Assembly (NCBI GenBank): GCA_009922595.1
Contig: RFVC01000009.1
Location: forward strand, 1 to 64,000
DNA from: Gammaproteobacteria bacterium
GTDB lineage: Bacteria; Pseudomonadota; Gammaproteobacteria; Pseudomonadales; Pseudohongiellaceae
DNA: 64,000 bases
Direction: 5' to 3'
In this document: in pieces, positions 1 to 12,850 of the stretch
Position numbering within the stretch: the stretch's first letter is position 1
How the letters are laid out: every line of letters starts with the position of its first letter
Notes under the pieces: generated by a model
Seen by the model: only the letters and a program-made list of their open reading frames with translations
What the model was told of the DNA's origin: nothing
The model's database searches: none
Translations under genes and position numbers: made by a program

Positions 1-48
1 GGATTGAAAATCCTCGTGTCGGTGGTTCGATTCCGCCCCTGGGCACCA
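1..48 (+). tRNA. tRNA-Phe(GAA), 3' part, cut by window start
   Basis: The window opens inside a tRNA. An anticodon loop TTGAAAA (anticodon GAA) is followed by a GGTGG/CCGCC T-stem around TTCGATT, the 3' acceptor strand CCTGGGC, discriminator A and an encoded CCA ending at 48. The loop and the GTGTC variable region match gammaproteobacterial tRNA-Phe as I remember it. The 5' half lies outside the window. Because the anticodon is on this side, this is presumably the functional copy, and the repeat at 7577-7621 is the displaced original 3' end. Confidence 0.9.
4..48 (+). repeat. Left attachment site (attL) in tRNA-Phe
   Basis: These 45 bases, from the anticodon loop through CCA, recur without mismatch at 7577-7621 in the same orientation. 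The identity stops right after the CCA on both sides (TCC here, CCA there). A direct repeat of a tRNA 3' end is the usual footprint of tyrosine-recombinase integration. The repeat is seen; the mechanism is inferred, and no integrase gene lies between the copies. Confidence 0.85.
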
Positions 49-157: not shown

Positions 158-254
158 AAATCAAGGGGTCAGAGTCATTGATTCCTATACTTCTTAATAG
201 AATCGCCTCCAGTACCACTTTTATGGAATTTCAAGAACTCTGATCCCTTGATTT
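158..254. mobile_element. 97-bp MITE-like element, copy 1
   Basis: The element starts AAATCAAGGGGTCAGAGT and ends with the inverse (AAATCAAGGGATCAGAGT on the other strand), giving 18-bp terminal inverted repeats with one mismatch. A second copy of identical length lies at 7376-7472 in the same orientation, differing at about 7 of 97 positions. It has no coding capacity. Ends of this kind resemble non-autonomous or REP-type elements mobilised in trans, but no matching transposase is in the window. Confidence 0.7.
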
Positions 255-292
255 CTTAGGAATTGTTATTTTATGAGCGCCCCAACTTAATA

Positions 293-306
293 GTTGTATT
301 TACATA
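293..306. promoter_or_regulatory. Candidate MarR-type operator upstream of the methyltransferase
   Basis: GTTGTATTTACATA matches 12 of 14 positions of the palindrome GTTGTA-TT-TACAAC found, in the opposite sense, at 3977-3990. It lies about 75 bases before the methyltransferase start. Similar half-sites occur before the other island transcription units, next to a MarR-family gene in the same island. The assignment is inference. Confidence 0.4.
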
Positions 307-380: not shown

Positions 381-1394
381 ATGAACCCTGCATTACCTGC
401 TATTGATGACACGCCAGTATGGGATGTCATGTTGAGTGTTTTCAAATCCCAGGCAATTACCATAGCACTGGAACTCGATGTTTTTGAAGGTCTGAAAGAT
501 CCTGCCAGCCTAGATGAGCTTTCAGAAAAACTAGCTTACTCACCACGTGGAATGAAAGCCTTATTGCCAATGCTTAAAATGCAGGGGTTTCTGGATAAGC
601 ATAAAGGGGTTTACCACCTTAATAATCTGTCTCGCGCGTATATGCTCAAGGAAAGCCCATATTACTGGGGACCATTTTTTAGCCGACGAGCAGAAACACT
701 GCCGAATTACAAAATGATTCTGGAAAACATCAGAGATGGCGAAACAGTTGAGGCCAGAGGGTCTGCTGATGGCTGGGAGTCCGGACAGATGGATCCGGAA
801 CTTGCAAAAACAGTGACCGACTTTATGCACTCCCATTCCATTACCTCAGCAGTAGGCCTTACTCATACCTGCGACTTTTCCGGTGTTGAAAAGCTGCTTG
901 ATGTAGGTGGTGGTTCAGGCTGCTATGCCTCAGCACTGGCAAATCACTATCCTGATATGCAGTGTACAATTATGGATCTAGCGCAGGTATGTGATGTAGC
1001 AAAAGACTATATAGAGAAAGCCGGCGTTTCTGACCGTGTAAATACCAAAGCCGTAGATATGTTCAGGGAAGCTTGGCCCGAAGGCTATAACGCTCATTTT
1101 TACTCCAATATTTTTCATGACTGGAGTATAGAAACCTGCGAAGAGCTGGCGCAAAAAAGTTATGACGCCCTTGCACCAGGTGGCCGGATTTGCCTCCAGG
1201 AAATACTTTTCGAGGAAGACGGCGACGGCCCTTTTCCCGCAGCGGCTTTTTCCTTTTTCATGACGCAGGGAACCAAGGGACAGCAATATACACTGAATGA
1301 ATTGGAATCCATTTTGTCAAAAGCAGGGTTTAAAAATATTAGCGCACAACGATCCTACGGCTATTATTCGCTCGTTACTGCTTACAAAATATAA
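381..1394 (+). CDS. SAM-dependent O-methyltransferase (methyltransf_2 / acetylserotonin-methyltransferase type)
   Basis: A 337-residue protein. The first ~95 residues resemble the winged-helix dimerisation domain of plant and bacterial small-molecule O-methyltransferases. The SAM-binding motif LLDVGGGSG is at 172-180, and the catalytic-type HDW triplet at 246-248 lies in an N-x-x-HDW context. Such enzymes methylate a hydroxyl on an aromatic or polyketide-like substrate; this substrate is unknown. The ATG at 381 is preceded by AGAGAAG; the longer upstream reading frame has no ribosome site and crosses the putative operator. It is the first gene of the tRNA-Phe island and is followed by a hairpin terminator. 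Confidence 0.85.
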   Translation: MNPALPAIDDTPVWDVMLSVFKSQAITIALELDVFEGLKDPASLDELSEKLAYSPRGMKALLPMLKMQGFLDKHKGVYHLNNLSRAYMLKESPYYWGPFFSRRAETLPNYKMILENIRDGETVEARGSADGWESGQMDPELAKTVTDFMHSHSITSAVGLTHTCDFSGVEKLLDVGGGSGCYASALANHYPDMQCTIMDLAQVCDVAKDYIEKAGVSDRVNTKAVDMFREAWPEGYNAHFYSNIFHDWSIETCEELAQKSYDALAPGGRICLQEILFEEDGDGPFPAAAFSFFMTQGTKGQQYTLNELESILSKAGFKNISAQRSYGYYSLVTAYKI

Positions 1395-1457
1395 TCTGGC
1401 CTAATTCACTTCAACATATTTAAGCGATATTGGCATTACTGCAACACTTCTACATTC

Positions 1458-1497
1458 AAAGCGGCTTCTAATCATCCTGATTAAGGTCGCTTTTTTT
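1458..1497 (+). terminator. Rho-independent terminator after the methyltransferase
   Basis: AAAGCGGC (1458-1465) pairs with GTCGCTTT (1486-1493). An additional inner CTAATCA/TGATTA pairing extends the stem, and a run of T follows. It sits between two convergent genes. Confidence 0.7.
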
Positions 1498-1534
1498 CCA
1501 TTCTCTTATAAGCTTATCGACATAACGAAGGAAC

Positions 1535-2629
1535 TCAATTCTCATCAAATCTGATCTGTACGCTTCCATCAGCAGTGACTTCATATCGATTACCTTCATG
1601 ACAGGAATATTCCTGAATACTAAATCCCGCAGGTGCACGGGCATAATGTTTAATCGTTTCCCATGGCTCATAGAATGCGATTGGGTCATTCAATGTAACA
1701 GCCACTTCCAAATAATCCGGAGTCAGTTTTTCTATAGACATGGTAACTTCCAGCTGACTGCTATGTGGAACACCTGTTGTGTCTATCAAAGTATCTGCTT
1801 TCATCGATATTGTTCGTGTTTCCAGTACGTTACCGTTCCATTTACCCGTGGTATAGCCGTTATAACTCAGCTCAAGAGGTTCTGGTTGCGGACGCTCATC
1901 AAGGTAAATTCGAATCGTAGATTCATACCATTCAGCATACCAATTAATCTGATGCTCTGATTGGAGTATTTCGCCGGGATAAACCATGCCCAGAAAACGT
2001 GGAAAACCCGGGGGTATACACAACGCCGTTGGATCATTGGTAGATATTCCAGCCTCAGCATTCGCCAGTCGTTCTTCCCAGCGCGCCATGTATTCAGGCC
2101 GCAATGGAGGTGATTGTTCAGTTCGAGCCACAGTACTATCAAAATGAATACCACCATTAGCATTAACCCAAATACCGTTAAGGTTCCTGGCAATTTCGGA
2201 TGTCATTGGCACAGGATCCGGACGTGGGATATCAAAAATTGTAGTGGAGCGTTCTACTTCAATAGTATCTGAGTCAACGAACTTATAACTCATAAAACGC
2301 CCACCCGGTTTTCCATTCGTCAGCGGGTGAATTTCAACAGTAATTCGATCACCTGGTTTAAAAGAGTCAGCATTCCATCCTCTTCTGGAAAGCATGTTTT
2401 TAGGACCATGTTCAAGCTGCCAAATTGTCTTCACGCCATTCTCGTCAACAACTTCAAGGTCAACGAAAGTATGAGGATTGGTCCAATGGAATGCCGCCAC
2501 AGAACCAGTTATTGTTCGTGGGTTATTTGCATCAAACATGCTAAATGAATGATGTGCTTGTGCCAGTGGTGGTACCAGCAGTACAAACACGATTAAAAGG
2601 ATAAAATTATGTTCTTTAGAATTCTTCAT
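1535..2629 (-). CDS. Exported DUF6152 protein with C-terminal unknown domain (fused form)
   Basis: A 364-residue protein with a Sec signal peptide ending in AQA just before HHSFSMFD, the N-terminal signature of the DUF6152 family. DUF6152 spans about residues 25-125 (a WTNPH motif, then a GD and GGRF-type turn). The C-terminal ~200 residues carry a conserved core: C-x-P-P-G-F-P-R, a TxGKWxGxxLxxxT stretch and a late YSCHEGNRY. The same C-terminal domain occurs in the proteins at 2632, 12014 and, more divergently, 7830. Function is unknown; a periplasmic location is predicted. It lies 2 bases after the similar gene at 2632, so the two are very likely co-transcribed. Confidence 0.8.
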   Translation of the reverse strand: MKNSKEHNFILLIVFVLLVPPLAQAHHSFSMFDANNPRTITGSVAAFHWTNPHTFVDLEVVDENGVKTIWQLEHGPKNMLSRRGWNADSFKPGDRITVEIHPLTNGKPGGRFMSYKFVDSDTIEVERSTTIFDIPRPDPVPMTSEIARNLNGIWVNANGGIHFDSTVARTEQSPPLRPEYMARWEERLANAEAGISTNDPTALCIPPGFPRFLGMVYPGEILQSEHQINWYAEWYESTIRIYLDERPQPEPLELSYNGYTTGKWNGNVLETRTISMKADTLIDTTGVPHSSQLEVTMSIEKLTPDYLEVAVTLNDPIAFYEPWETIKHYARAPAGFSIQEYSCHEGNRYEVTADGSVQIRFDEN

Positions 2630-2631
2630 TT

Positions 2632-3852
2632 TCAGTCCATACCAGGTAATGACTGGTTATCTGTATAGATGCAATTTGCCTCTCGAACATCAGATCTCAA
2701 TACCCTGTCACGAAATTTTACGTGTTTCCATTCCCCTTCCCAGTGCTCAGGGTCAGTAAAAGTAAATTCTATTGCCAGTGTATTGCCATCATTGATCATC
2801 TGATAACGTTCAACAATTTTCAGTTGTGTTCCGGCCGGGACGCCTGCCTGAATCAAATGATTCTCACCAATAAAGCCAGTTGTTTCGACCACCAATTCAT
2901 CATCTTCCCAGTGCCCCAATGACTCGCCATGCCAGTTCCGATCAACAGCGTCATCTGGCAAACGTTCTCTGCCATCCAGAAAAATCACGCGATAATCATT
3001 GTTCAATCGAGAAACCATATATATGGCTGTTGGGAACTGGATCATCATCAATGAGCCGTACCGCGTCATAAAACGGGGCATACCCGGGGGATAGCATAAA
3101 GCGGTGGGGTCGCCGAAACGTTCGCCTTTTTCACTGGCTTCAATGTATTGATCTAGATAAGCCTGGGCCTTTGCTGTCAATTTAGGCTTTGGTTTGAATT
3201 CGAATGAGCCATAATTTGCGCGCCATTCATCCTCACCACGAAATTGCCAGACTCCGGTCAAATCAAAAGCCGCAGGTGGGCGTTCCTTAGCCAGATTATC
3301 AGGGTCAAGCGCTCCAGACATTAAGCCTGTAGCAGTACTGTCACCAGCAGCAAGGCCATTAGAAACTATAGGTAGATTCGCTGGCCGGGTTTTCTCTTCA
3401 CGCTCCTGCCAGGTTTCACCTTCCGGGGGCGGTGTCCACGCCAGCAAAGCCGGGTAAACAAGACGCTGGGTTTCAACGGGCGCCTCCATGTTATAGGCAA
3501 CGCCATCTGCCCCAATCATTCCTTCGATCAAGCCTCCCGGCCTGCCAGATCTCAAGGGGTACATCTTTACTGTAATAGTGTCGCCTACTGAAACAGAATT
3601 TCTGGTGAAGCCCATGGCTTGCATGCCAGCAATACTCTGTCCTTCTATATTCCACTCCTCAATTACCCCTCCCTCATTTTCAATATCCATAGTCAGGATC
3701 ATATGAGGGTTTCTCATTATAAACTGCGTTACGACCCCGGTTTTGGTAACAGTTGCTGAGTTATCAAAAACCACCGCGGAATGATGAGCCAAACCTAACT
3801 GACCAAATAATATGGTGATTCCAAGAATAAGAAATTTGATGGATTTATTCAT
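2632..3852 (-). CDS. Second exported DUF6152 protein, fused form
   Basis: A 406-residue paralogue of the neighbour at 1535. The signal peptide MNKSIKFLILGITILFG leads to AHHSAVVFD and a DUF6152 domain (NPHMIL, GDTITVKMYPL, GRPGG). A linker of ~90 residues precedes the C-terminal domain with ALCYPPGMPRFM, WHGESLGHWEDDELVVETTG and a late single Cys. The start is placed at 3852 because GAGGG precedes that ATG on the minus strand; the upstream in-frame ATG at 3927 would give an implausible long hydrophobic leader. It is divergent from the TonB receptor, and the intergenic space holds two operator-like palindromes. Biochemical role is unknown. Confidence 0.8.
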   Translation of the reverse strand: MNKSIKFLILGITILFGQLGLAHHSAVVFDNSATVTKTGVVTQFIMRNPHMILTMDIENEGGVIEEWNIEGQSIAGMQAMGFTRNSVSVGDTITVKMYPLRSGRPGGLIEGMIGADGVAYNMEAPVETQRLVYPALLAWTPPPEGETWQEREEKTRPANLPIVSNGLAAGDSTATGLMSGALDPDNLAKERPPAAFDLTGVWQFRGEDEWRANYGSFEFKPKPKLTAKAQAYLDQYIEASEKGERFGDPTALCYPPGMPRFMTRYGSLMMIQFPTAIYMVSRLNNDYRVIFLDGRERLPDDAVDRNWHGESLGHWEDDELVVETTGFIGENHLIQAGVPAGTQLKIVERYQMINDGNTLAIEFTFTDPEHWEGEWKHVKFRDRVLRSDVREANCIYTDNQSLPGMD

Positions 3853-3871
3853 GCCAGCCCTCATAATTATA

Positions 3872-3885
3872 TATGTATTTACAAC
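3872..3885. promoter_or_regulatory. Operator-like half of the island palindrome
   Basis: TATGTATTTACAAC matches GTTGTATTTACAAC at 12 of 14 positions. It lies just upstream of the DUF6152 gene start (3852, minus strand), where it could control that promoter. Confidence 0.35.
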
Positions 3886-3976
3886 TATTATGGCAAAAAG
3901 ATATAGTATATATACAAGATTGTCCATTCACTTGTAGCAAATCGTTGAAAATAGAGTTATGCTTGCCAAAATTGTA

Positions 3977-3990
3977 GTTGTAAATACAAC
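3977..3990. promoter_or_regulatory. Palindrome GTTGTA-AA-TACAAC before the TonB receptor
   Basis: A perfect 6+6 inverted repeat with a 2-base spacer, 40 bases upstream of the receptor ATG and inside the divergent promoter region. It is the best-conserved member of a set (293, 3872, 3977, 6804) that probably binds the island's MarR regulator. The palindrome is seen; the binding is inferred. Confidence 0.5.
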
Positions 3991-4029
3991 ATTTTATTAC
4001 AATAAAAATGAAGGGAGAGAGGATCAATT

Positions 4030-6582
4030 ATGAAAAAGCAATTCTATAAATCTGCATTGGCAGTATTTATAAGTGGCATATCAACCTCAACAGCATATGC
4101 GCAGTCCACACTTGAAGAAATAACTGTGACGGCACAACGCAGAGCTGAAGACCTTCAGTCGGTTCCTGTCGCTGTGACCACATTCAATCCGGAAGAACTT
4201 GACCGTCTGGGCGTAACAGATCCTCAGCAAATGGCGGATTTTATACCGAATGTAAGTATTGGTGATGGTACCGGGCGCGCCAATGTAGGAGCACAGTTTT
4301 CCATTCGCGGTGTCAATGAGGCCCGAATCTCACCGGTTCTCGATCCCGCAGTAGGTATTTATATTGATGAAGTCTATTACGGTCGGCCTATTACCAATTT
4401 CCTGCGTTTGCTTGATGTGCAGGCAGTGGAGGTTCTGCGCGGTCCCCAGGGTACCTTGTTCGGCAAAAACTCCACTGGTGGCGCAATTGTTTATGCAACC
4501 AACAAACCGGATGTCAACGCCGGCCTGAATGGTTATGTTAAAGGCGGTATTGGCGAATTCTCTCGCGGTAATTTAAGAACAGCCGTGAATATTCCTCTCT
4601 CCGATACTGTTGCTGCTCGCTTGTCTTATGCGCATATGGAACGTGATGGGTGGCTGGATAGAATTTCAGACGGGGTTGCATTGGGTGCCGATGACACAGA
4701 TTTTTTCTCTGCAAAGTTACGCATTCAGCCTAATGACAAACTGACAGTAGATGTTGGCTTTGATTACACAGAATCCAGTTCAAATGGAGGGGCCAGTAAA
4801 TTAATTGATTACTTCGGCAACAACGGTGGATTTGATGATCCATCCACTGCGGGCATAGAAGGGGATGTAACGCCACCGGTTTTTACTCCCGGTATTTCTA
4901 ATATTGCAGCTTATAACACTTTGTTCCCTGCGGGCACACCGGAGCATTATGCACCGACAATTCCGCTCGACCTTTATAAAATTACAGGTGCAGGCCCTAT
5001 AGGTGGCACCGATGCCGAAAGCACCGGTTTTACCATGGCCATTAGCTACGACATTTCAGATACCATGAATTTCAAATCGATTACCGGTTATCGGGATATG
5101 GAAACGCTGGAGAACAGGGAATCAGATGAAAGTCTTTTTGCACAGTCCTATTTTGACAGCAAAACACTGGATAACAGTGATTTTTGGTCCCAGGAATTTC
5201 AGCTTAATGGCACCGCTTTTGATGATCGTTTGAATTATGTTGTAGGCGCATATATCTCTGAGGAAGAACCTACATTAAGGCAGCTCACCAACAAGGACTA
5301 CCGTGGAACAGATCTGTTTGGCACCCTGGAATTCCGTGGTACCAGGGCGCAACTTACCAAGAGCAGCGGCATTTTTGCACAGGGGGACTGGATGTTAAGC
5401 GACACCCTGACTCTCACTCTCGGGGTTCGCTCGGTCAAAGACAGGAAAAGCTTCAGTACCTTTAATCAAGGTGTTTTTGATGAGGCACTGGACCAGCGTC
5501 TTTTCGAAATATGGGCTATTGACCCCAACGGTCCCGACGATAACAGTAATTATCCTGACCTCGATCCGCGACCTGGTCCTAATGTACTCTATCCAAATGG
5601 CGATCGAGATACATACGGGAATTGTACAGAAGCCAGTCCATGCTTCATGTCGGGACGCAGTATAGTAGGTACTGAAGCTGAAGCGACCGTAAGTGGAAGG
5701 GATACATTCACGACGGTTACGCCACGTATCGCACTGGAATGGCAGGCACGGGACAACATGATGTTTTATGCCTCGGCGACAAAAGGCTTTAAATCCGGCG
5801 GCACCAATGACACCGTTGCAGATATCAATACCCCTTTCCAACCTGAAGAACTCTGGAATTATGAGCTGGGGACACGTTTTCAGTCAGAAGACGGACGGAT
5901 CAGGGCTAACATTACTGTTTTTCAAATGGATTATTCAGATAAACAATTGACGGTGACAGCTGATGAACGTTGTAACCGTCGCTGCACCATCAATGTCGGT
6001 GACGCCACTATTTCAGGGATTGAAATAGAAGCTATAGCATTGTTGGCTGACAACCTCAGATTAAATCTGGGCTATGGCGGACTTGATGCAGAATGGGATT
6101 CATATAGTCAATTTGCAGGCGTGGAAAAAGATTCTCCTTTCAGTCGTGCACCAGAACATTCTTTTACTGCGGGACTGCGCCATAACTGGGATCTTGATAT
6201 GGGTGGCAGCCTTGTCAGTTCCGTTAATTATTCTTACAAGGATGATCAGCAAAGCAGTGGACAAGATTCAACAACCCTCACGATTCCTTCTTATCATCTT
6301 GTCACAGCTCGTATCGCTTATGTTTCTCCGGAGGGCAACTGGGAAGCCTCATTATTTTGCACCAACTGTACCGATGAAGAATACATTACAGGTGGTGCTG
6401 CATGGGGTGGTTCTACAGCAGGCAGCGGGTTTTCATACAAACCTGTTAATCATCCAGCTTATATCGATTCCGACCCCAACGTAGGCGACCAGAATCCAAG
6501 AAGCAACGCCCCCCCTGGAATTACGTTGGTCAATATTGGCGCGCCACGAATGATAGGCATGGATTTCAGTTATTCATTCTGA
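4030..6582 (+). CDS. TonB-dependent outer-membrane receptor
   Basis: An 850-residue protein. The signal peptide ends at AYA-Q, followed by a TonB-box-like EEITVTAQ near residues 29-36. The plug domain includes SIRGVNE, DEVYYGRP and VLRGPQGTLFGKNSTGGAI. A long beta-barrel ends in the aromatic terminus DFSYSF typical of outer-membrane insertion. It belongs to the large-ligand receptor class common in sphingomonads and marine gammaproteobacteria, not to an obvious siderophore group. Strong GGGAGAGG precedes the ATG. It is the only transporter in the island, so it presumably imports the compound handled by the DUF6152 and methyltransferase products; the ligand is unknown. Confidence 0.92.
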   Translation: MKKQFYKSALAVFISGISTSTAYAQSTLEEITVTAQRRAEDLQSVPVAVTTFNPEELDRLGVTDPQQMADFIPNVSIGDGTGRANVGAQFSIRGVNEARISPVLDPAVGIYIDEVYYGRPITNFLRLLDVQAVEVLRGPQGTLFGKNSTGGAIVYATNKPDVNAGLNGYVKGGIGEFSRGNLRTAVNIPLSDTVAARLSYAHMERDGWLDRISDGVALGADDTDFFSAKLRIQPNDKLTVDVGFDYTESSSNGGASKLIDYFGNNGGFDDPSTAGIEGDVTPPVFTPGISNIAAYNTLFPAGTPEHYAPTIPLDLYKITGAGPIGGTDAESTGFTMAISYDISDTMNFKSITGYRDMETLENRESDESLFAQSYFDSKTLDNSDFWSQEFQLNGTAFDDRLNYVVGAYISEEEPTLRQLTNKDYRGTDLFGTLEFRGTRAQLTKSSGIFAQGDWMLSDTLTLTLGVRSVKDRKSFSTFNQGVFDEALDQRLFEIWAIDPNGPDDNSNYPDLDPRPGPNVLYPNGDRDTYGNCTEASPCFMSGRSIVGTEAEATVSGRDTFTTVTPRIALEWQARDNMMFYASATKGFKSGGTNDTVADINTPFQPEELWNYELGTRFQSEDGRIRANITVFQMDYSDKQLTVTADERCNRRCTINVGDATISGIEIEAIALLADNLRLNLGYGGLDAEWDSYSQFAGVEKDSPFSRAPEHSFTAGLRHNWDLDMGGSLVSSVNYSYKDDQQSSGQDSTTLTIPSYHLVTARIAYVSPEGNWEASLFCTNCTDEEYITGGAAWGGSTAGSGFSYKPVNHPAYIDSDPNVGDQNPRSNAPPGITLVNIGAPRMIGMDFSYSF

Positions 6583-6600
6583 CCAATAATCAAAGAATCA

Positions 6601-6629
6601 AAAGGCCCGTCATCCGGCGGGCCTTTTTA
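6601..6629 (+). terminator. Rho-independent terminator of the TonB receptor
   Basis: AAAGGCCCG (6601-6609) pairs with CGGGCCTTT (6618-6626) and is followed by TTT. Confidence 0.85.
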
Positions 6630-6803
6630 TATTTGGAAAATAGTTCTCACCAAAGACTGAAGGATTTAGAGCTGCCTTTTTCCAATAGTTACGATTCTGT
6701 TAATGCAGGAAAATGCTACCATTAACACCACTATCAATACGTCATCATGGTTGCAGGAATGCCATTTTATAAGTATTTTTTAAACACCAAACTATTTATT
6801 ACA

Positions 6804-6813
6804 TTGTATACAA
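6804..6813. promoter_or_regulatory. Palindrome TTGTATACAA before marR
   Basis: A perfect 10-bp inverted repeat 46 bases upstream of the MarR start. The half-site TTGTA is the same as in the other island palindromes, but the 2-base spacer is absent. Autoregulation by the MarR protein is a reasonable inference. Confidence 0.45.
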
Positions 6814-6859
6814 GTAATGCTATTAGCCATTTTTATTCCAAATCAGGTAAGAATAATTT

Positions 6860-7312
6860 ATGTCTAAAAATCTTGAATTAAGAAAGCTTCTAACTTACCA
6901 GCTAGTGGCATTATCCCGTGAAATAAGTTATTTCAACCAGCGCTCCGTCAATCCAACAAAAGACCTGAATATTCCTGAAATGAGGATACTGGGTCTTCTG
7001 CATACATTAGGCCGAAGCAACCAAAAGGAATTCATAAAGAACTCTTTACGCGGTGATCCGGGAAATATAAGTCGCTATATAAAAGGCCTGGAAAAAAAAG
7101 GCTACTTGAAATCAGTAAAAGATAAAGTTGATAAGCGGATAAAATGGCTTAGCCCAACTGCAAAGGGAAGAAAGGCTGCTGAAAAATATATCCAACAGCG
7201 ATATTTTCATAACAATGAATTAACTGCCGAATTTACCAAAGCTGAATTAGTCCAATTTGAAAAATTTATCAAGAAAACAGCTTTATTTTATGAAAACAAA
7301 CAAGGCCGATAA
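6860..7312 (+). CDS. MarR-family winged-helix transcriptional regulator
   Basis: A 150-residue protein with a typical MarR layout: an N-terminal dimerisation helix, then the winged helix-turn-helix at about residues 40-110 (PEMRILGLLHTLG, then SLRGDPGNISRYIKGLEKKGYL as the recognition region, then the wing KVDKRIKWLSPTAKG) and a C-terminal helix. MarR proteins usually repress nearby genes until a small, often phenolic, ligand is bound. It is the last gene of the island, and the spacing of related palindromes at 293, 3872, 3977 and 6804 suggests it governs the whole cargo. No other regulator is present in the island. Confidence 0.88.
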   Translation: MSKNLELRKLLTYQLVALSREISYFNQRSVNPTKDLNIPEMRILGLLHTLGRSNQKEFIKNSLRGDPGNISRYIKGLEKKGYLKSVKDKVDKRIKWLSPTAKGRKAAEKYIQQRYFHNNELTAEFTKAELVQFEKFIKKTALFYENKQGR

Positions 7313-7375
7313 CACTTTTCCATAACTGCAAAGACACTTTATTACCCATGAAAAGCTAAAGAAACAGGGTCAGCG

Positions 7376-7472
7376 AAATCAAGGGGTCTGAGTCAATGAT
7401 TCCTATACTTCTTAATAGAATCATCTCCAGTACAACTTTTATGAGATTTCAAGAACTCTGATCCCTTGATTT
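7376..7472. mobile_element. 97-bp MITE-like element, copy 2
   Basis: Same length and orientation as the copy at 158-254, about 90 of 97 bases identical, with the same terminal inverted repeats (AAATCAAGGGG... and ...CCCTTGATTT). Together the two copies bracket the island cargo inside the att sites. Confidence 0.7.
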
Positions 7473-7576
7473 CATTTGATTCTAATTATTGCGAATTTAA
7501 TAACACACTTCTAAGCACAATCTGATTTCACAATTATAACGGACTGAATTAATTGTAGAATCAGCGAACACGTCAT

Positions 7577-7621
7577 TTGAAAATCCTCGTGTCGGTGGTT
7601 CGATTCCGCCCCTGGGCACCA
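7577..7621 (+). repeat. Right attachment site (attR), tRNA-Phe 3' fragment
   Basis: A perfect 45-bp duplicate of 4-48. It begins in the anticodon loop and ends with CCA; the upstream bases (CGTCA) do not continue the tRNA, so this is a displaced 3' end and not a gene. The tRNA terminator follows 10 bases later, marking the original chromosomal side. Confidence 0.85.
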
Positions 7622-7829: not shown

Positions 7830-9248
7830 TTATTCAAATGAAAATATATCCTCTTCCTCATCGGGTTTTTTCATTTCCTGTTCATGGAACCGCTTCCAGT
7901 TCTCAGCCCATGGCCGACCATAAATATCGGGAACAACAACATTAATCGTTTCCCCGGGAGCCGCAGGCGTAGGTTGCCCCTCTAGATTAAAAATCGATTG
8001 CACACATTCGATGAACTGGTAAGGCGCACCCTCTAACAGGCTGCTCTGTTTTTCAAGATTGCGCACTATCCTGATCGGTTCTACCAGGGCCTCCGGATCA
8101 TAGAAAACGGCTTCATGATTAAGGCCATAAATCTCGCCCTCTGGGTTTCTATTCGCTGTGTATATTTCTATAACCTGCAGCTTGCTTGAAAACTCCATGC
8201 CGCCATGAACCTTCCATCCCTGGATATTGGATGTCCAGGTGATGAGAACTTCCTCGTCCCAGAAACCAATCGTCTCCCCATACCACTGCGGCACATCAGC
8301 ACCGAGCCTGGGCACCAGGCCTTCCATATTGAATTCACGGCCAACATGAATATTGGTAATAAAGTTATTGGCATCACCGGCAAGGAGCTGCACCAGTTCC
8401 GGTGTAACCAGCACCTGGTGAGGTTGGTTGGTCACGCCATGGTAATGAAAACGGCGCATGAAACCCTCTGGCCAGCAAAACTGTGCTGGCCATTGCGCTA
8501 CGTTGGTATTGCCATGGTGATAGGCTTCCTGCACAAAGCGAGTCTGGTATTCCTCGGTCATTAAGGAAAGAACGGTAGGCACCTGGCTCCAGAAAAGTTC
8601 GGCATACCAGTTCTGGCCACGCGGCCACACGTAGCGGCCATTCCAGTCAGACGGTACCGTGGCATAGGTATGTTGAGTCGGACCACCACGGTATTTCGCT
8701 TCTTCCATGAGAACGTTGTAGTGATCCATGGCGTTAGCAAAAGAATAAGGGCTTACCATGGCCGCCCTTGGATAATCCCTGTCACAGTAACCCCAAGCAG
8801 CAGATGCTGGCGGATCGTCTCCAATCAGCAATCCAGACCACTGGGCCTGGATTGCTTCAGAACTGTTGCAACGAAAATATCGCGGGTCACTCCATAATTC
8901 CCGGTCAGCGTAGAAATCGTTTGAGGTAAAGAGGTCAACTGGTAATGGCTCAATTCCCTCAGGAACACTGCCATCCAGTGCGGTTGCATGAATCATACCC
9001 ATGCCGACACCACCGGCCCCCAATGTCCCGATTCTGAAGGGTCCCACCATCCAGTATTGCTCAGGATAGTTCTCCAGTTCCGCAGGAGGATAGGCTTCAA
9101 GTAACTCGGCAGGGGTTCTCTGGCTCCCCGGGATGGCGGGTACCAAAGGTGCGCCACGGCCATTGCTGGGAAAGCCTGGATCAGCAACCTGTTGAGCTGA
9201 GACATCCAGAATGTGCAGACATGCCAAGATGACAACGATGATTCTCAT
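7830..9248 (-). CDS. Exported protein of unknown function, divergent member of the DUF6152-associated C-terminal family
   Basis: A 472-residue protein. The start is set at 9248, where GGGGGG precedes ATG on the minus strand; this leaves a clean signal peptide MRIIVVILACLHILDVSA. The C-terminal half has the pattern seen in the proteins at 1535, 2632 and 12014: a FCWPEGFMRRF segment, WYGETIGFWDEEVLITWTS and a late Glu-Cys pair. The N-terminal half (GAGGVGMGMIHAT, CNSSEAI) is not recognised. It is a single gene divergent from the metallo-hydrolase at 9402, which suggests shared control. The acidic tail ends in SFE. Substrate and partners are unknown. Confidence 0.7.
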   Translation of the reverse strand: MRIIVVILACLHILDVSAQQVADPGFPSNGRGAPLVPAIPGSQRTPAELLEAYPPAELENYPEQYWMVGPFRIGTLGAGGVGMGMIHATALDGSVPEGIEPLPVDLFTSNDFYADRELWSDPRYFRCNSSEAIQAQWSGLLIGDDPPASAAWGYCDRDYPRAAMVSPYSFANAMDHYNVLMEEAKYRGGPTQHTYATVPSDWNGRYVWPRGQNWYAELFWSQVPTVLSLMTEEYQTRFVQEAYHHGNTNVAQWPAQFCWPEGFMRRFHYHGVTNQPHQVLVTPELVQLLAGDANNFITNIHVGREFNMEGLVPRLGADVPQWYGETIGFWDEEVLITWTSNIQGWKVHGGMEFSSKLQVIEIYTANRNPEGEIYGLNHEAVFYDPEALVEPIRIVRNLEKQSSLLEGAPYQFIECVQSIFNLEGQPTPAAPGETINVVVPDIYGRPWAENWKRFHEQEMKKPDEEEDIFSFE

Positions 9249-9269
9249 GCTTACCCCCCGGTAATATGT

Positions 9270-9288
9270 CATTGTCTAAACGACAATG
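9270..9288. promoter_or_regulatory. Inverted repeat CATTGTC-TAAAC-GACAATG in divergent promoter
   Basis: Perfect 7+7 arms with a 5-base spacer, 21 bases upstream of the exported-protein start at 9248 and inside the region shared with the gene at 9402. A regulator-binding site is plausible; the regulator is unknown. Confidence 0.4.
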
Positions 9289-9401: not shown

Positions 9402-10862
9402 GTGTTTAAAAAACTGGTACTGGTAATATTTACAGCGGGCATTGTTAACCAGGTGTCCGCGCAAATCGTCGAGGATGTTATCGCTGATGCCATATCAGCA
9501 CTAGGCAATGCCCAATCGGTGCTGTTAACCGGCTCAGCAAAATATGTCGCCTTTCAGCAATGCGGCGCTAATGGCGCGGACAGAAGATGCGAAGGCACCC
9601 ATGATCCTATGCGGGTCATCACTGATTACGAAAGAGTTGTGGACCTTAACTCCCCTGCCATGCGGCACCAGGGCAACACCATGAACATAGGTCCAGGCGG
9701 CTCCACCACTATAAGCCCGGGCACATTTTTCCAGAGCATCACCAGTGATCAGGCAGACCTTTCATCATCATGGGGCGGGTCAATTGAGTTTTACATTACT
9801 CCCTGGGGCTTTCTGAAAGGCGCCTCTGTAAGTGAAACAACGTCGAATCGCCGAACCATCAACGGTAAAACCTATACCGTGTTGAGCTGGAGCCCTGACG
9901 TTACAGCTCCTTCAGGAGCAAACTATGTCGTCAATGGCTACATCAATGATGAAAACCTTCTTGAGCGTGTCGAGACATGGCTTGAAGACAACATCATGGG
10001 TGACATGCATATCGTTGCCAGCTATAGCGGCTGGCGTGACTTTGGAGGATTTATTGCACCCACCGCAATAGAGCAAACACGGGGCGGGTGGCCCTTTTTT
10101 GAGGTAGCTGTCGTAAATGCCCAGGCCAACATGAGCGATGTTGCCTCCCTGCTTCCAGCACCCGAATCCGGAGGTGGCGGTGGTTTCGGCGGTGGTCGTG
10201 ATTTCACTGTTGCAGTTGAAGATCTGGGCAACGACCTCTACCGCTTTAACACTGGTCCCGGCGGCTACGATTCACTGATATACGAATTTGAAGACCACAT
10301 CATGATGTTTGAAGCCGGTGCCAGTCATGAAGTAGTGGCGGCTTACCTAGAAGAAATTCATCGTATGTTTCCCGGCAAACCGATTCGCTACATCATGAAC
10401 ACCCATCCACATTCTGATCATACGGCAGGCCTGCCTGTGGTGGTTGCTGAAGGGGCCACTGTCATCACCCATGAAAACAATCGTGAGTTTTTTGAACGGG
10501 CACTTAACACACCCCGTACACTCCTGAATGATGCACTGGCGCGAAACCCACAGAAGGTCTGGGTTGAGGGTACAGGCACGAAGGCTGCTTATACTGACGG
10601 TGACCACACGGTGGAGCTCTACCATATTTACCCGGCACCGCATTCGAACGGTCTGCTGGTCGCTTTCTTCCCTGAAGAAAGAGTGCTGTTCCAGGGAGAC
10701 TTTTCTCTGCCTCAGCCTGGTGAGCGGGGTAACGACCATGTTCAGGCCCTGGTACCGGCACTGATCAAGCTGGGAGTCACCGAGTTCGATCGTTACATCA
10801 ATGTCCACGCCAGCGCAGAGCCGCAGACCAAAGACCAGCTGTGGGCTGCTGCAGGTCGTTAA
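9402..10862 (+). CDS. Exported metallo-beta-lactamase-fold hydrolase with N-terminal extension
   Basis: A 486-residue protein starting at GTG after GGGGGAG. Signal peptide MFKKLVLVIFTAGIVNQVSA. Residues ~25-255 form an N-terminal domain I do not recognise, joined by a Gly-rich linker near 257 to an MBL domain. All usual metal ligands are visible: HPHSDH at 335-340, a downstream APHS histidine, FQGD aspartate and a final VHAS histidine. The fold is hydrolytic; the substrate is unknown, and periplasmic or extracellular action is predicted. Neighbouring genes on both sides also encode exported proteins. Confidence 0.8.
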   Translation: MFKKLVLVIFTAGIVNQVSAQIVEDVIADAISALGNAQSVLLTGSAKYVAFQQCGANGADRRCEGTHDPMRVITDYERVVDLNSPAMRHQGNTMNIGPGGSTTISPGTFFQSITSDQADLSSSWGGSIEFYITPWGFLKGASVSETTSNRRTINGKTYTVLSWSPDVTAPSGANYVVNGYINDENLLERVETWLEDNIMGDMHIVASYSGWRDFGGFIAPTAIEQTRGGWPFFEVAVVNAQANMSDVASLLPAPESGGGGGFGGGRDFTVAVEDLGNDLYRFNTGPGGYDSLIYEFEDHIMMFEAGASHEVVAAYLEEIHRMFPGKPIRYIMNTHPHSDHTAGLPVVVAEGATVITHENNREFFERALNTPRTLLNDALARNPQKVWVEGTGTKAAYTDGDHTVELYHIYPAPHSNGLLVAFFPEERVLFQGDFSLPQPGERGNDHVQALVPALIKLGVTEFDRYINVHASAEPQTKDQLWAAAGR

Positions 10863-11609: not shown

Positions 11610-11996
11610 ATGGCTAAAAAACTGCTAGGCACTGTCTTTCTATCGACTTTACTTTACCTATTTTCACTTGAAATTTTTGCGCATCATTCTGTGGCTATTT
11701 ACGACGCAGAAAACCCACTTCAACTTACGGGCAAAGTCGTGGAATGGCAGTTCACCAATCCTCATGTCTTTATTCTTTTATCCGTAGAGGATGACCAGGG
11801 CAAGGAGGTGACGTGGAATCTTGAAGGCTCCAATACGTCATTAATGCTTCGCAGAGGATGGCGCCCGGATACGTTAGTCCCCGGCGATGAAATCATTGTG
11901 CGTTTTAATCCACTGCATAGCGGTGCGCCCGGCGGCAACTTCAGGGAAGTATTCAACCCTGACGGCACAGCTTTTGATCCCTCCTCTAAACGCTAA
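11610..11996 (+). CDS. Stand-alone exported DUF6152 protein
   Basis: A 128-residue protein: signal peptide ending at IFA, then HHSVAIYD and a complete DUF6152 domain (WQFTNPHVFI, W-x-L-E-G, RRGW, GDEIIVRFNPL, GAPGG). Unlike the two island paralogues it has no C-terminal domain; that domain is encoded separately 17 bases downstream. AGGGGAAAA precedes the ATG. The pair is almost certainly one operon, and the fused homologues imply that the two products act together in the envelope. Confidence 0.85.
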   Translation: MAKKLLGTVFLSTLLYLFSLEIFAHHSVAIYDAENPLQLTGKVVEWQFTNPHVFILLSVEDDQGKEVTWNLEGSNTSLMLRRGWRPDTLVPGDEIIVRFNPLHSGAPGGNFREVFNPDGTAFDPSSKR

Positions 11997-12013: not shown

Positions 12014-12850
12014 ATGAATATATTCAACAGGACGTTTTTTTTCTCAGTACTTGTTTTTCTCCAGACTGCCTGCACGCAGAGCAATGAAATAACTGGCCAA
12101 GAGACTGCCATTCAATATCCTGACTGGAGCGGACAATGGTCACGCATAGGCAGTCTTAACTGGGAGCCGGAAGGTTATGCCGTGGCCGGTCCGCCACCGC
12201 TGACGCCTGAGTACCAGGCCAGGAGAGAAGAATTCCAGAGTCAGAGAGACCAGGGCATGCTGGTAGGCGACCCGCCGGCAAACTGTTTGCCGCCGGGAAT
12301 GCCAAGAGTGATGACCATGTCATTTCCCTTTGAATTGGTTATTACTCCGAACACGACTTACATCCTCGCTGACTGGGAGAGTGCTGTCAGGAGAATCTTC
12401 ACTGATGGAAGAGACTGGCCGGATTACATGCTGCCTGAATTCAATGGCTACTCAATCGGGCAGTGGCACGATGAAAATGACGACGGAGTTTATGACATGC
12501 TTTCCGTAGAAACCCGCGCTATCAAGGGACCTCGTTCTTTTGATTCAACCGCCGTCGTTGCACATGACAACAACCAGACCGTTGTCTTAGAGGAATTCCG
12601 CCGCATTGATGAAGAAACGCTGGAAGACAAGATCACAACAATTGATGACGCCCTCACCGGACCATGGACCGTCCAGCGCCGTTACAGTCACACCCCTTTT
12701 TCTCAAGATATACTCTGGGTGGAATATGTCTGCGCCGAAGGCAACCGTCATTTAAACCTGGGAGAAGAGTGGTACTTCATTAACAAGGAAGAGGGAACAT
12801 TGGAACCCACCCGTGATGGGCAGCCCAGGATGGTGCCAGTTTACGACTGA
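12014..12850 (+). CDS. Lipoprotein carrying the DUF6152-partner domain
   Basis: A 278-residue protein with a type II signal and lipobox LQTAC (Cys at about residue 20). The mature part reproduces the C-terminal domain of the island fusions: a W-S-G-Q-W opening, CLPPGMPRVM, an RRIFTDGRDWP stretch, GYSIGQW, VETRA and a late VCAEGNRH. Lipidation suggests anchoring to the inner face of the outer membrane or to the inner membrane, which would place its DUF6152 partner (11610) in the periplasm beside it. Function unknown. Confidence 0.8.
   Translation: MNIFNRTFFFSVLVFLQTACTQSNEITGQETAIQYPDWSGQWSRIGSLNWEPEGYAVAGPPPLTPEYQARREEFQSQRDQGMLVGDPPANCLPPGMPRVMTMSFPFELVITPNTTYILADWESAVRRIFTDGRDWPDYMLPEFNGYSIGQWHDENDDGVYDMLSVETRAIKGPRSFDSTAVVAHDNNQTVVLEEFRRIDEETLEDKITTIDDALTGPWTVQRRYSHTPFSQDILWVEYVCAEGNRHLNLGEEWYFINKEEGTLEPTRDGQPRMVPVYD

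Follow-up and report, generated by a model that had tools for sequence, protein, structure and literature searches.

The closest described counterpart of the locus analysed in this study is the DdvT/DdvR pair of Sphingobium sp. SYK-6, in which DdvT takes in a biphenyl compound derived from lignin and the MarR-type regulator DdvR acts as its repressor (PMC6874591). Our locus lies at positions 381 to 7,312 of a 64,000-nucleotide (nt) stretch of DNA, hereafter the window (contig RFVC01000009.1, positions 1 to 64,000 of the forward strand; assembly GCA_009922595.1), from an uncultured marine gammaproteobacterium of the family Pseudohongiellaceae, and consists of five genes encoding a methyltransferase (OMT), two DUF6152 proteins (D1 and D2), a TonB-dependent receptor and a MarR-type regulator. 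A preliminary description of this DNA had proposed that they form an uptake and modification system for an external, perhaps phenolic, compound, and had added that no described system with such content was known; this last statement is too strong, since the DdvT/DdvR pair already combines a TonB receptor for a lignin-derived aromatic with repression by a MarR-type protein. Our best reading, held with moderate confidence, is that the genes constitute a DdvT/DdvR-like, MarR-controlled module for the uptake and handling of an aromatic, probably phenolic, compound, carried on a small islet at a tRNA gene. The gene families, the borders, the shared sites and the neighbourhoods of orthologues are read from the sequence itself.

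Profile matches placed all five genes in the families, and at the positions, given in the preliminary description, with one correction to the start of D2, which probably lies near 3864 or 3849. The genes and the terminator among them are as follows.

381..1394, + strand: OMT, S-adenosylmethionine-dependent methyltransferase of the Methyltransf_2 type (PF00891, 2.4e-37; PF08100, 4.6e-12)
1535..2629, - strand: D1, DUF6152 fused to an unnamed barrel domain, apparently exported (by eye) (PF19649, 9.7e-29; C-terminal domain by our own profile)
2632..3864 (start revised from 3927), - strand: D2, DUF6152 fused to an unnamed barrel domain, apparently exported (by eye) (PF19649, 1.7e-20; AlphaFold2 models)
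4030..6582, + strand: TonB-dependent outer-membrane receptor (PF00593, 2.8e-38; PF07715, 8.2e-17)
6600..6627, + strand: likely terminator after the receptor gene, a G+C-rich hairpin followed by a T run
6860..7312, + strand: MarR-type regulator (PF01047, 7e-10; orthologues in genomes G004, 63%, and G005, 54%)

D1 and D2 score 99.8 and 73.4 bits against PF19649 (cut-off 27), and each carries a second, unnamed C-terminal domain. The D2 start is more likely near 3864 or 3849 than at 3927 because the nearest orthologue has an in-frame stop upstream. D2 and D1 run in the same direction, 2 bp apart, and the receptor gene diverges from D2 across a common intergenic region.

The five-gene region very likely represents a small genomic islet adjoining a tRNA-Phe gene at its 3' end, bounded by the following elements.

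1..48, + strand: final 48 nt of a tRNA-Phe(GAA) gene, its 3' end; identity to the intact G005 tRNA-Phe (ARAGORN; nt 29-76) is 98%
7577..7621, + strand: right attachment-site-like border, an exact 45-nt repeat of the tRNA-Phe 3' end (tRNA nt 32-76; 45/45 nt versus the left copy)
158..255, no strand assigned: left copy of a 98-nt element with inverted ends, 93% identical to 7376-7473
7376..7473, no strand assigned: right copy of the 98-nt element, pairing with 158..255

The earlier wording, an island holding these genes and nothing else, is borne out: over about 7.5 kb the five genes stand alone between the tRNA-Phe 3' end copies at 1-48 and 7577-7621, and their G+C content is 0.435 against 0.500 in the remaining window. 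The left border is visible only as the final 48 nt of the tRNA because the contig begins inside the tRNA-Phe gene (window base 1 is base 1 of contig C286, in an assembly of 2.64 Mb and 307 contigs). A shuffle control for the 25-nt end of the border repeat gave 0 matches in 100 shuffles. One copy of the 98-nt element lies just inside each border, and a genome-wide search at E<=1e-5 returned no copies beyond these two. Among relatives, the congener G005 has an intact tRNA-Phe(GAA) directly upstream of its OMT orthologue, which shares the site with other genes; G022 has a mutY-tRNA-Phe-cysQ(-HAD-hsp15) stretch without the islet cargo; the mutY...tRNA-Phe...cysQ site of G012 and G028 holds different cargo; and in the congener G004 the gene immediately after tRNA-Phe encodes an N-terminal domain of the phage-integrase type (PF13102, 28.2 bits against a cut-off of 22.3). 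The tRNA repeat, the low G+C content, the variably filled site in relatives and the integrase-type gene of G004 therefore point to a small genomic islet at an insertion site.

A similar arrangement occurs on contig C15 of the same assembly (L134, 306-2780), where a second tRNA-Phe and the same 45-nt repeat 2.4 kb away bracket one FG-GAP-repeat gene; this is weak support for the tRNA border because a flank has a G+C content of 0.615 and the contig is possibly a contaminant. Contig C215 of G003 was considered as a clean empty site and is not claimed as one, as it ends 68 bp upstream of its complete tRNA-Phe, which is followed by relatives of the window genes at 7830-9272 and 9402-10862; the second tRNA-Phe of G003 adjoins mutY on a contig that ends 53 bp past that tRNA. 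Outside the islet, before cysQ, the window encodes a 480-amino-acid barrel-domain protein (7830-9272), a third, separate member of the DUF6152 family (11610-11996; PF19649) and a separate barrel-domain protein (12014-12850). The G004 contig (L007, 15900-16291) ends just before the OMT gene with what reads, by eye, as the start of an insertion-sequence transposase gene.

The islet genes look like one regulon, probably under the control of the MarR gene, as judged from three palindromic or near-palindromic sites upstream of its members.

3977..3990, + strand: palindromic operator-like site upstream of the receptor gene, exact GTTGTAAATACAAC
3872..3885, - strand: operator-like site on the D2 side of the shared promoter region, 2 mismatches to GTTGTAAATACAAC
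293..306, - strand: operator-like site upstream of the OMT gene, 2 mismatches to GTTGTAAATACAAC

Within the 64 kb, GTTGTAAATACAAC at up to 2 mismatches occurs only before the OMT, D2 and receptor genes. For each of 32 D2-related genes (32 of 34 D2 loci, L125 and L130 being left out by a length or identity filter), we surveyed the stretch between 350 bp upstream and 60 bp into the gene, and the best match had 1 mismatch in L100 (G004) and L101 (G005) and at least 3 in the other 30. These two are also the two loci of the 32 with a MarR orthologue (63% and 54%), so that the predicted operator tracks the MarR gene. In 2000 random windows of equal length, none contained GTTGTAAATACAAC at up to 1 mismatch and two contained it with 2 mismatches. 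The G005 site stands immediately before D2, and in the shared region of G004 the 1-mismatch site lies on the receptor side, with a weaker copy on the D2 side.

The recurrence of these genes was analysed across 95 genomes, the window's own (G000) included. A receptor of the same clade (E<=1e-100) was found in 6 of them, D2 (E<=1e-60) in 9 and OMT (E<=1e-30) in 15, five of the latter at 77% identity or higher. All partners occur together in 2/95 genomes only, the window's own and that of G004, which keeps the order OMT-D2-receptor-MarR at 85, 90, 89 and 63% identity; a D1 orthologue was not seen at the G004 locus, where a different fused DUF6152 protein lies nearby. With this count, the co-occurrence elsewhere that the preliminary description had looked to is not borne out, and the five-gene set is rejected as a conserved system. 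In G001 and G002 the OMT gene lies on a contig without receptor or D2, and in G005 it lies at the tRNA-Phe site, with D2 and MarR on another contig and no receptor orthologue found in that genome. Of the 34 D2 loci, which come from named records, six (L100, L102, L103, L104, L105 and L120) have a same-clade receptor (43-89%) in the vicinity of D2, and a second fused DUF6152 protein often adjoins D2, so that the receptor with paired DUF6152 proteins emerges as a recurring core, to which OMT, judged from these neighbourhoods, is a local addition. L102 and L103 belong to one assembly, and L100, L101, L105, L108, L110, L111 and L116 are from genomes that also bear G handles. In G082, the contig of the receptor also carries a D2 relative (61%) at a distance of 13.6 kb, and a more similar one (70%) is on a different contig. 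The regulators vary between loci, with MarR in some and a TetR-type protein in G028. L116 (G022:C5, in the window's family) contains a D2 relative and aromatic genes, and its title as a Klebsiella pneumoniae metagenome-assembled genome looks wrong.

The ligand is slightly more likely than not to be an aromatic compound, and phenolic uptake is plausible because, in some other genomes, orthologues of the receptor, of OMT and of D2 are each found among genes for aromatic ring cleavage. G082 carries its receptor orthologue (64%) within a cluster for protocatechuate 4,5-cleavage, together with LigB, LigA, LigK and 4-oxalomesaconate tautomerase; LigB, LigK and the tautomerase exceed their NCBIfam cut-offs, and a PcaQ-like regulator and an MhpB-like dioxygenase in the same cluster fall under those of their models. 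The OMT orthologues of G001 and G002 (78%) adjoin LigA and LigB. A LigB- or MhpB-type dioxygenase is present in 12 of the 34 D2-family loci (stretches of 12-21 kb or less), and L128 and L130 hold other homoprotocatechuate-type genes only. At the density seen in 18 genomes, which contain 42 LigB-family (PF02900) genes in about 57 Mb together, roughly one such gene or fewer would be expected across the 34 loci (about 0.56 Mb). Neighbour labels are the best BLASTP match to our own reference set, in which the ring-cleavage reference proteins were checked by profile; the labels ALDH1, GST, MarR_hpaR? and Fah/MhpD? come from BLASTP only. In the window's own genome, a LigB-type dioxygenase stands between a DUF6152-barrel gene and another DUF6152 gene, and a lignostilbene-dioxygenase-like gene comes next (499 bits, model cut-off 800). 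Of the uptake and modification set proposed in the preliminary description, the idea of one regulon (by its GTTGTAAATACAAC sites) and the plausibility of phenolic uptake were upheld, and the conservation of the set was not.

Two further families were observed in these neighbourhoods. A Pfam-less protein family (start ...AQDCDRxC; L080:7213-8148, L082:3832-4761 and L085:3255-4202) has members separating LigB from the methyltransferase in G001 and G002, and also one near the OMT paralogue in the window's own genome. A thiamine-pyrophosphate enzyme (L081:7574-9463) with a twin-arginine-like start, as seen by eye, is paired with a cytochrome c gene (7111-7563) and recurs beside D2 relatives.

For OMT, the nearest solved structures are the entries for MTHB methyltransferase and DSYB, which give near-identical alignments (E ~9e-36, a remote full-length match) and are S-methyltransferases of dimethylsulfoniopropionate (DMSP) synthesis (PMC10989797). 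OMT keeps an N-x-x-H-D-W stretch that the DsyB entries lack and that aligns with a like stretch of the O-methyltransferase 5i2h; S- and C-methyltransferases are also found among its relatives. O-methylation of a phenol by OMT is plausible.

The two DUF6152 proteins belong to a family that is multiplied in these genomes. There are 46 DUF6152 matches in the window's own 2.64-Mb genome, 45-71 in each of five congeners, 18-57 in two other genera of the family and 1-3 in its remaining genera; outside the family, DUF6152 is present in 1 of 21 genomes. DUF6152, which the preliminary description had counted among the families of its system, is therefore no marker of one, given the 46 matches and the lack of any excess of TonB receptors nearby. 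A general bond between DUF6152 and TonB receptors was likewise not seen in the window's own genome, where 1 of 19 receptors (that of the window) lies within 3 kb of DUF6152, with 1.7 expected, and 6 of 19 lie within 6 kb (3.0 expected, P 0.07). Genes of the metallo-beta-lactamase fold, including the window's 9402-10862, are enriched near DUF6152: 8 of the 21 lie within 3 kb, where 1.9 would be expected (simple binomial, P ~3e-4).

Most DUF6152 genes are joined to the barrel domain or stand next to a gene for it. Among 42 DUF6152 genes in the examined stretches, 13 are fused to the unnamed C-terminal domain, and 20 of the 29 unfused ones have a barrel-domain gene on the same strand within 200 bp, with 2 more having one on the opposite strand. 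Three of the remaining 7 are explained or uncertain through stretch or contig ends: L035 was cut from its L025 neighbour by the choice of stretch, one gene is at a contig start and one is on a 3.4-kb contig. The window shows both forms, the fused D1 and D2 and the separate neighbours at 11610 and 12014. This fusion or adjacency points to a working pair. All 42 DUF6152 proteins contain a His-His, nearly always directly after the apparent signal-peptide cleavage site (by eye), and 41 contain a Pro-His; in 56 aligned fused proteins (54 of 65 fused relatives and the two window proteins), the His-His, the Pro-His and a pair of cysteines in the second domain do not vary. For the barrel domain, the 56 trimmed rows were aligned together with the window protein 12014-12850 and 10 of the 14 separately encoded barrel proteins.

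The AlphaFold2 model of D2 has a predicted local distance difference test score (pLDDT) of 79, with residues 24-29 below 50, and its first domain is predicted to be OB-like (PriB, 4apv; Z 9.3, 81 aligned, root-mean-square deviation (rmsd) 2.4). The second domain, modelled alone (pLDDT 86, predicted template modelling score 0.86), matches retinoid- and fatty-acid-binding proteins, with a Foldseek E-value of 1.7e-4 and a best VIA-align Z of 8.5 (121 aligned, rmsd 3.3), and this fold family leads the lists of both programs; by sequence, the barrel domain has no match in the PDB at E<=1. A carrier of hydrophobic ligands is the natural guess from the model for this domain, and it may also be an enzyme, as NanoLuc luciferase is among the structure matches. 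That D1 and D2 are periplasmic ligand carriers is a tentative suggestion, and binding of metal by the N-terminal histidines of DUF6152 is an idea. Taken further, DUF6152 and the barrel could form an undescribed two-part periplasmic handler of hydrophobic or aromatic molecules, in which the OB-like domain would offer a metal site through its mature N-terminal His-His and its Pro-His and the fatty-acid-binding-protein-like barrel would hold the ligand; the pair would be expanded in two genera of one family (37-71 matches per 2.6-3.4-Mb genome), with one version per compound, and versions would travel on tRNA islets with receptors and regulators. We regard this proposal as doubtful at present.

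Under our preferred reading, a MarR-controlled aromatic uptake module, the MarR protein would bind the GTTGTAAATACAAC sites before OMT, D2-D1 and the receptor and keep the genes silent for as long as the ligand is absent. After that, the TonB receptor would pull the ligand through the outer membrane, and the exported D1 and D2 would hold it in the periplasm in their fatty-acid-binding-protein-like barrels, either to pass it on or to act on it there as catalysts; the OB-like DUF6152 domain, which bears the His-His, would provide a second site that may bind metal. Once in the cytoplasm, the compound or a breakdown product would be modified by OMT. Here we infer the MarR repression, the export, the ligand class, the roles of D1 and D2 and the methyl acceptor.

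Several observations weigh against this reading, beyond the confinement of the full gene set to two genomes. No ring-cleavage gene was found among the 9 proteins scanned in the first 12 kb of the window, and the islet genes include no inner-membrane transporter. The receptor scores best with siderophore-receptor models, all below cut-off, and the structural match of the barrel is of moderate strength (Z 8.5 at best, and 7.8 at rank 50). The receptor, D2 and OMT orthologues of G002 are spread over three contigs, and the OMT promoters of G004 and G005 bear another palindrome, so that control of OMT by the GTTGTAAATACAAC site is seen in the window alone. The 12 dioxygenase loci and the 6 receptor loci are not independent of each other, and the former include close relatives (L119, L122, L124 and L131; L126, L127 and L129). 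In the window's own genome, LigB-family genes are not significantly close to DUF6152 (2 of 4 within 6 kb, P 0.12), and DUF6152 neighbours are functionally diverse (184 Pfam families, with 94 of 160 neighbour genes scanned). Finally, the islet contains no integrase, and its genome has no relative of the G004 integrase, other integrases not having been sought.

Some of these points are shared by an alternative that we consider rather unlikely, namely that the islet is unrelated cargo gathered at an insertion hot spot, where only D2-D1, the receptor and MarR form a unit and OMT is a bystander. The OMT orthologues stand apart from receptor and D2 in G001, G002 and G005, and the one in G005 occupies the tRNA-Phe site among other genes with neither of them; the different palindrome at the OMT promoters of G004 and G005 and the lack of a D1 orthologue at the G004 locus are in line with such an origin. 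Against it, the window's own OMT promoter has a site of the operator-like type found before D2 and the receptor, and G004 retains the gene order with OMT in place. An islet for uptake of a siderophore, haem or another metal, with D1 and D2 handling the metal through their N-terminal His-His, would account for the receptor's best NCBIfam model, TonB-siderophor (178 bits against a cut-off of 223.5), for the pesticin receptor as its best solved relative by sequence, and for the invariant His-His and Pro-His of the 56 D1/D2 relatives. We judge it improbable, as the five genes include none for making siderophores, for a ferric reductase or for an inner-membrane transporter of metals, and in some genomes the orthologues have aromatic catabolic genes as neighbours.

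MarR-type regulators often respond to phenolic toxins. This habit, together with the His-Asp-Trp stretch that OMT shares with the O-methyltransferase 5i2h, would suit a protection islet in which OMT inactivates a toxic phenol or antibiotic sensed by MarR and the receptor is incidental; a toxin-defence set would not be expected to carry its own importer, however, nor is there an efflux gene among the five, and we hold this explanation to be quite improbable. The least probable by far is that OMT is a DsyB-like S-methyltransferase and that the islet serves organosulfur (DMSP) metabolism. The MTHB methyltransferase and DSYB entries are indeed its best solved relatives, but the similarity is remote, the His-Asp-Trp stretch is absent from DsyB at the aligned place, which makes a DsyB role for OMT unlikely, and two OMT orthologues adjoin LigA/LigB.

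The full five-gene set is of less interest than the expansion of the DUF6152-barrel family and the uptake module borne on a tRNA islet. If the aromatic uptake reading is true, TonB-dependent uptake of lignin-like aromatics would extend to a group of uncultured gammaproteobacteria and could travel as a tRNA islet, and DUF6152, with 45-71 matches per genome in six genomes of the window's genus, would gain its first testable role.

When set beside known systems, D1, D2 and the protein at 11610-11996 are members of DUF6152 (PF19649), a Pfam entry without a function, to which our analysis adds the barrel partnership and the constant His-His; no paper in the literature library searched names either DUF6152 or PF19649. 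The predicted barrel of the D1/D2 C-terminal domain resembles that of retinoid- and fatty-acid-binding proteins (calycin fold), whereas the domain is bacterial and apparently exported and has extra helices and two conserved cysteines. With genomic islands and islets at tRNA 3' ends, the locus shares a duplicated tRNA 3' end as border, a lower G+C content and a site whose cargo varies among relatives; unlike them, it is very small and integrase-free, with an integrase-type gene at the same tRNA in a congener. A search of the literature for tRNA-Phe islands carrying receptors for aromatics found none. In comparison with DdvT/DdvR, the islet carries DUF6152-barrel proteins and sits at a tRNA gene, whereas the SYK-6 genes lie with catabolic enzymes and an inner-membrane major facilitator superfamily transporter, neither of which the islet holds, and the term methyltransferase is absent from the text of that paper (PMC6874591). 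What the two have in common is a TonB-dependent receptor with a linked MarR-type regulator and, as proposed for the islet, a TonB-powered step across the outer membrane, a likeness of gene arrangement.

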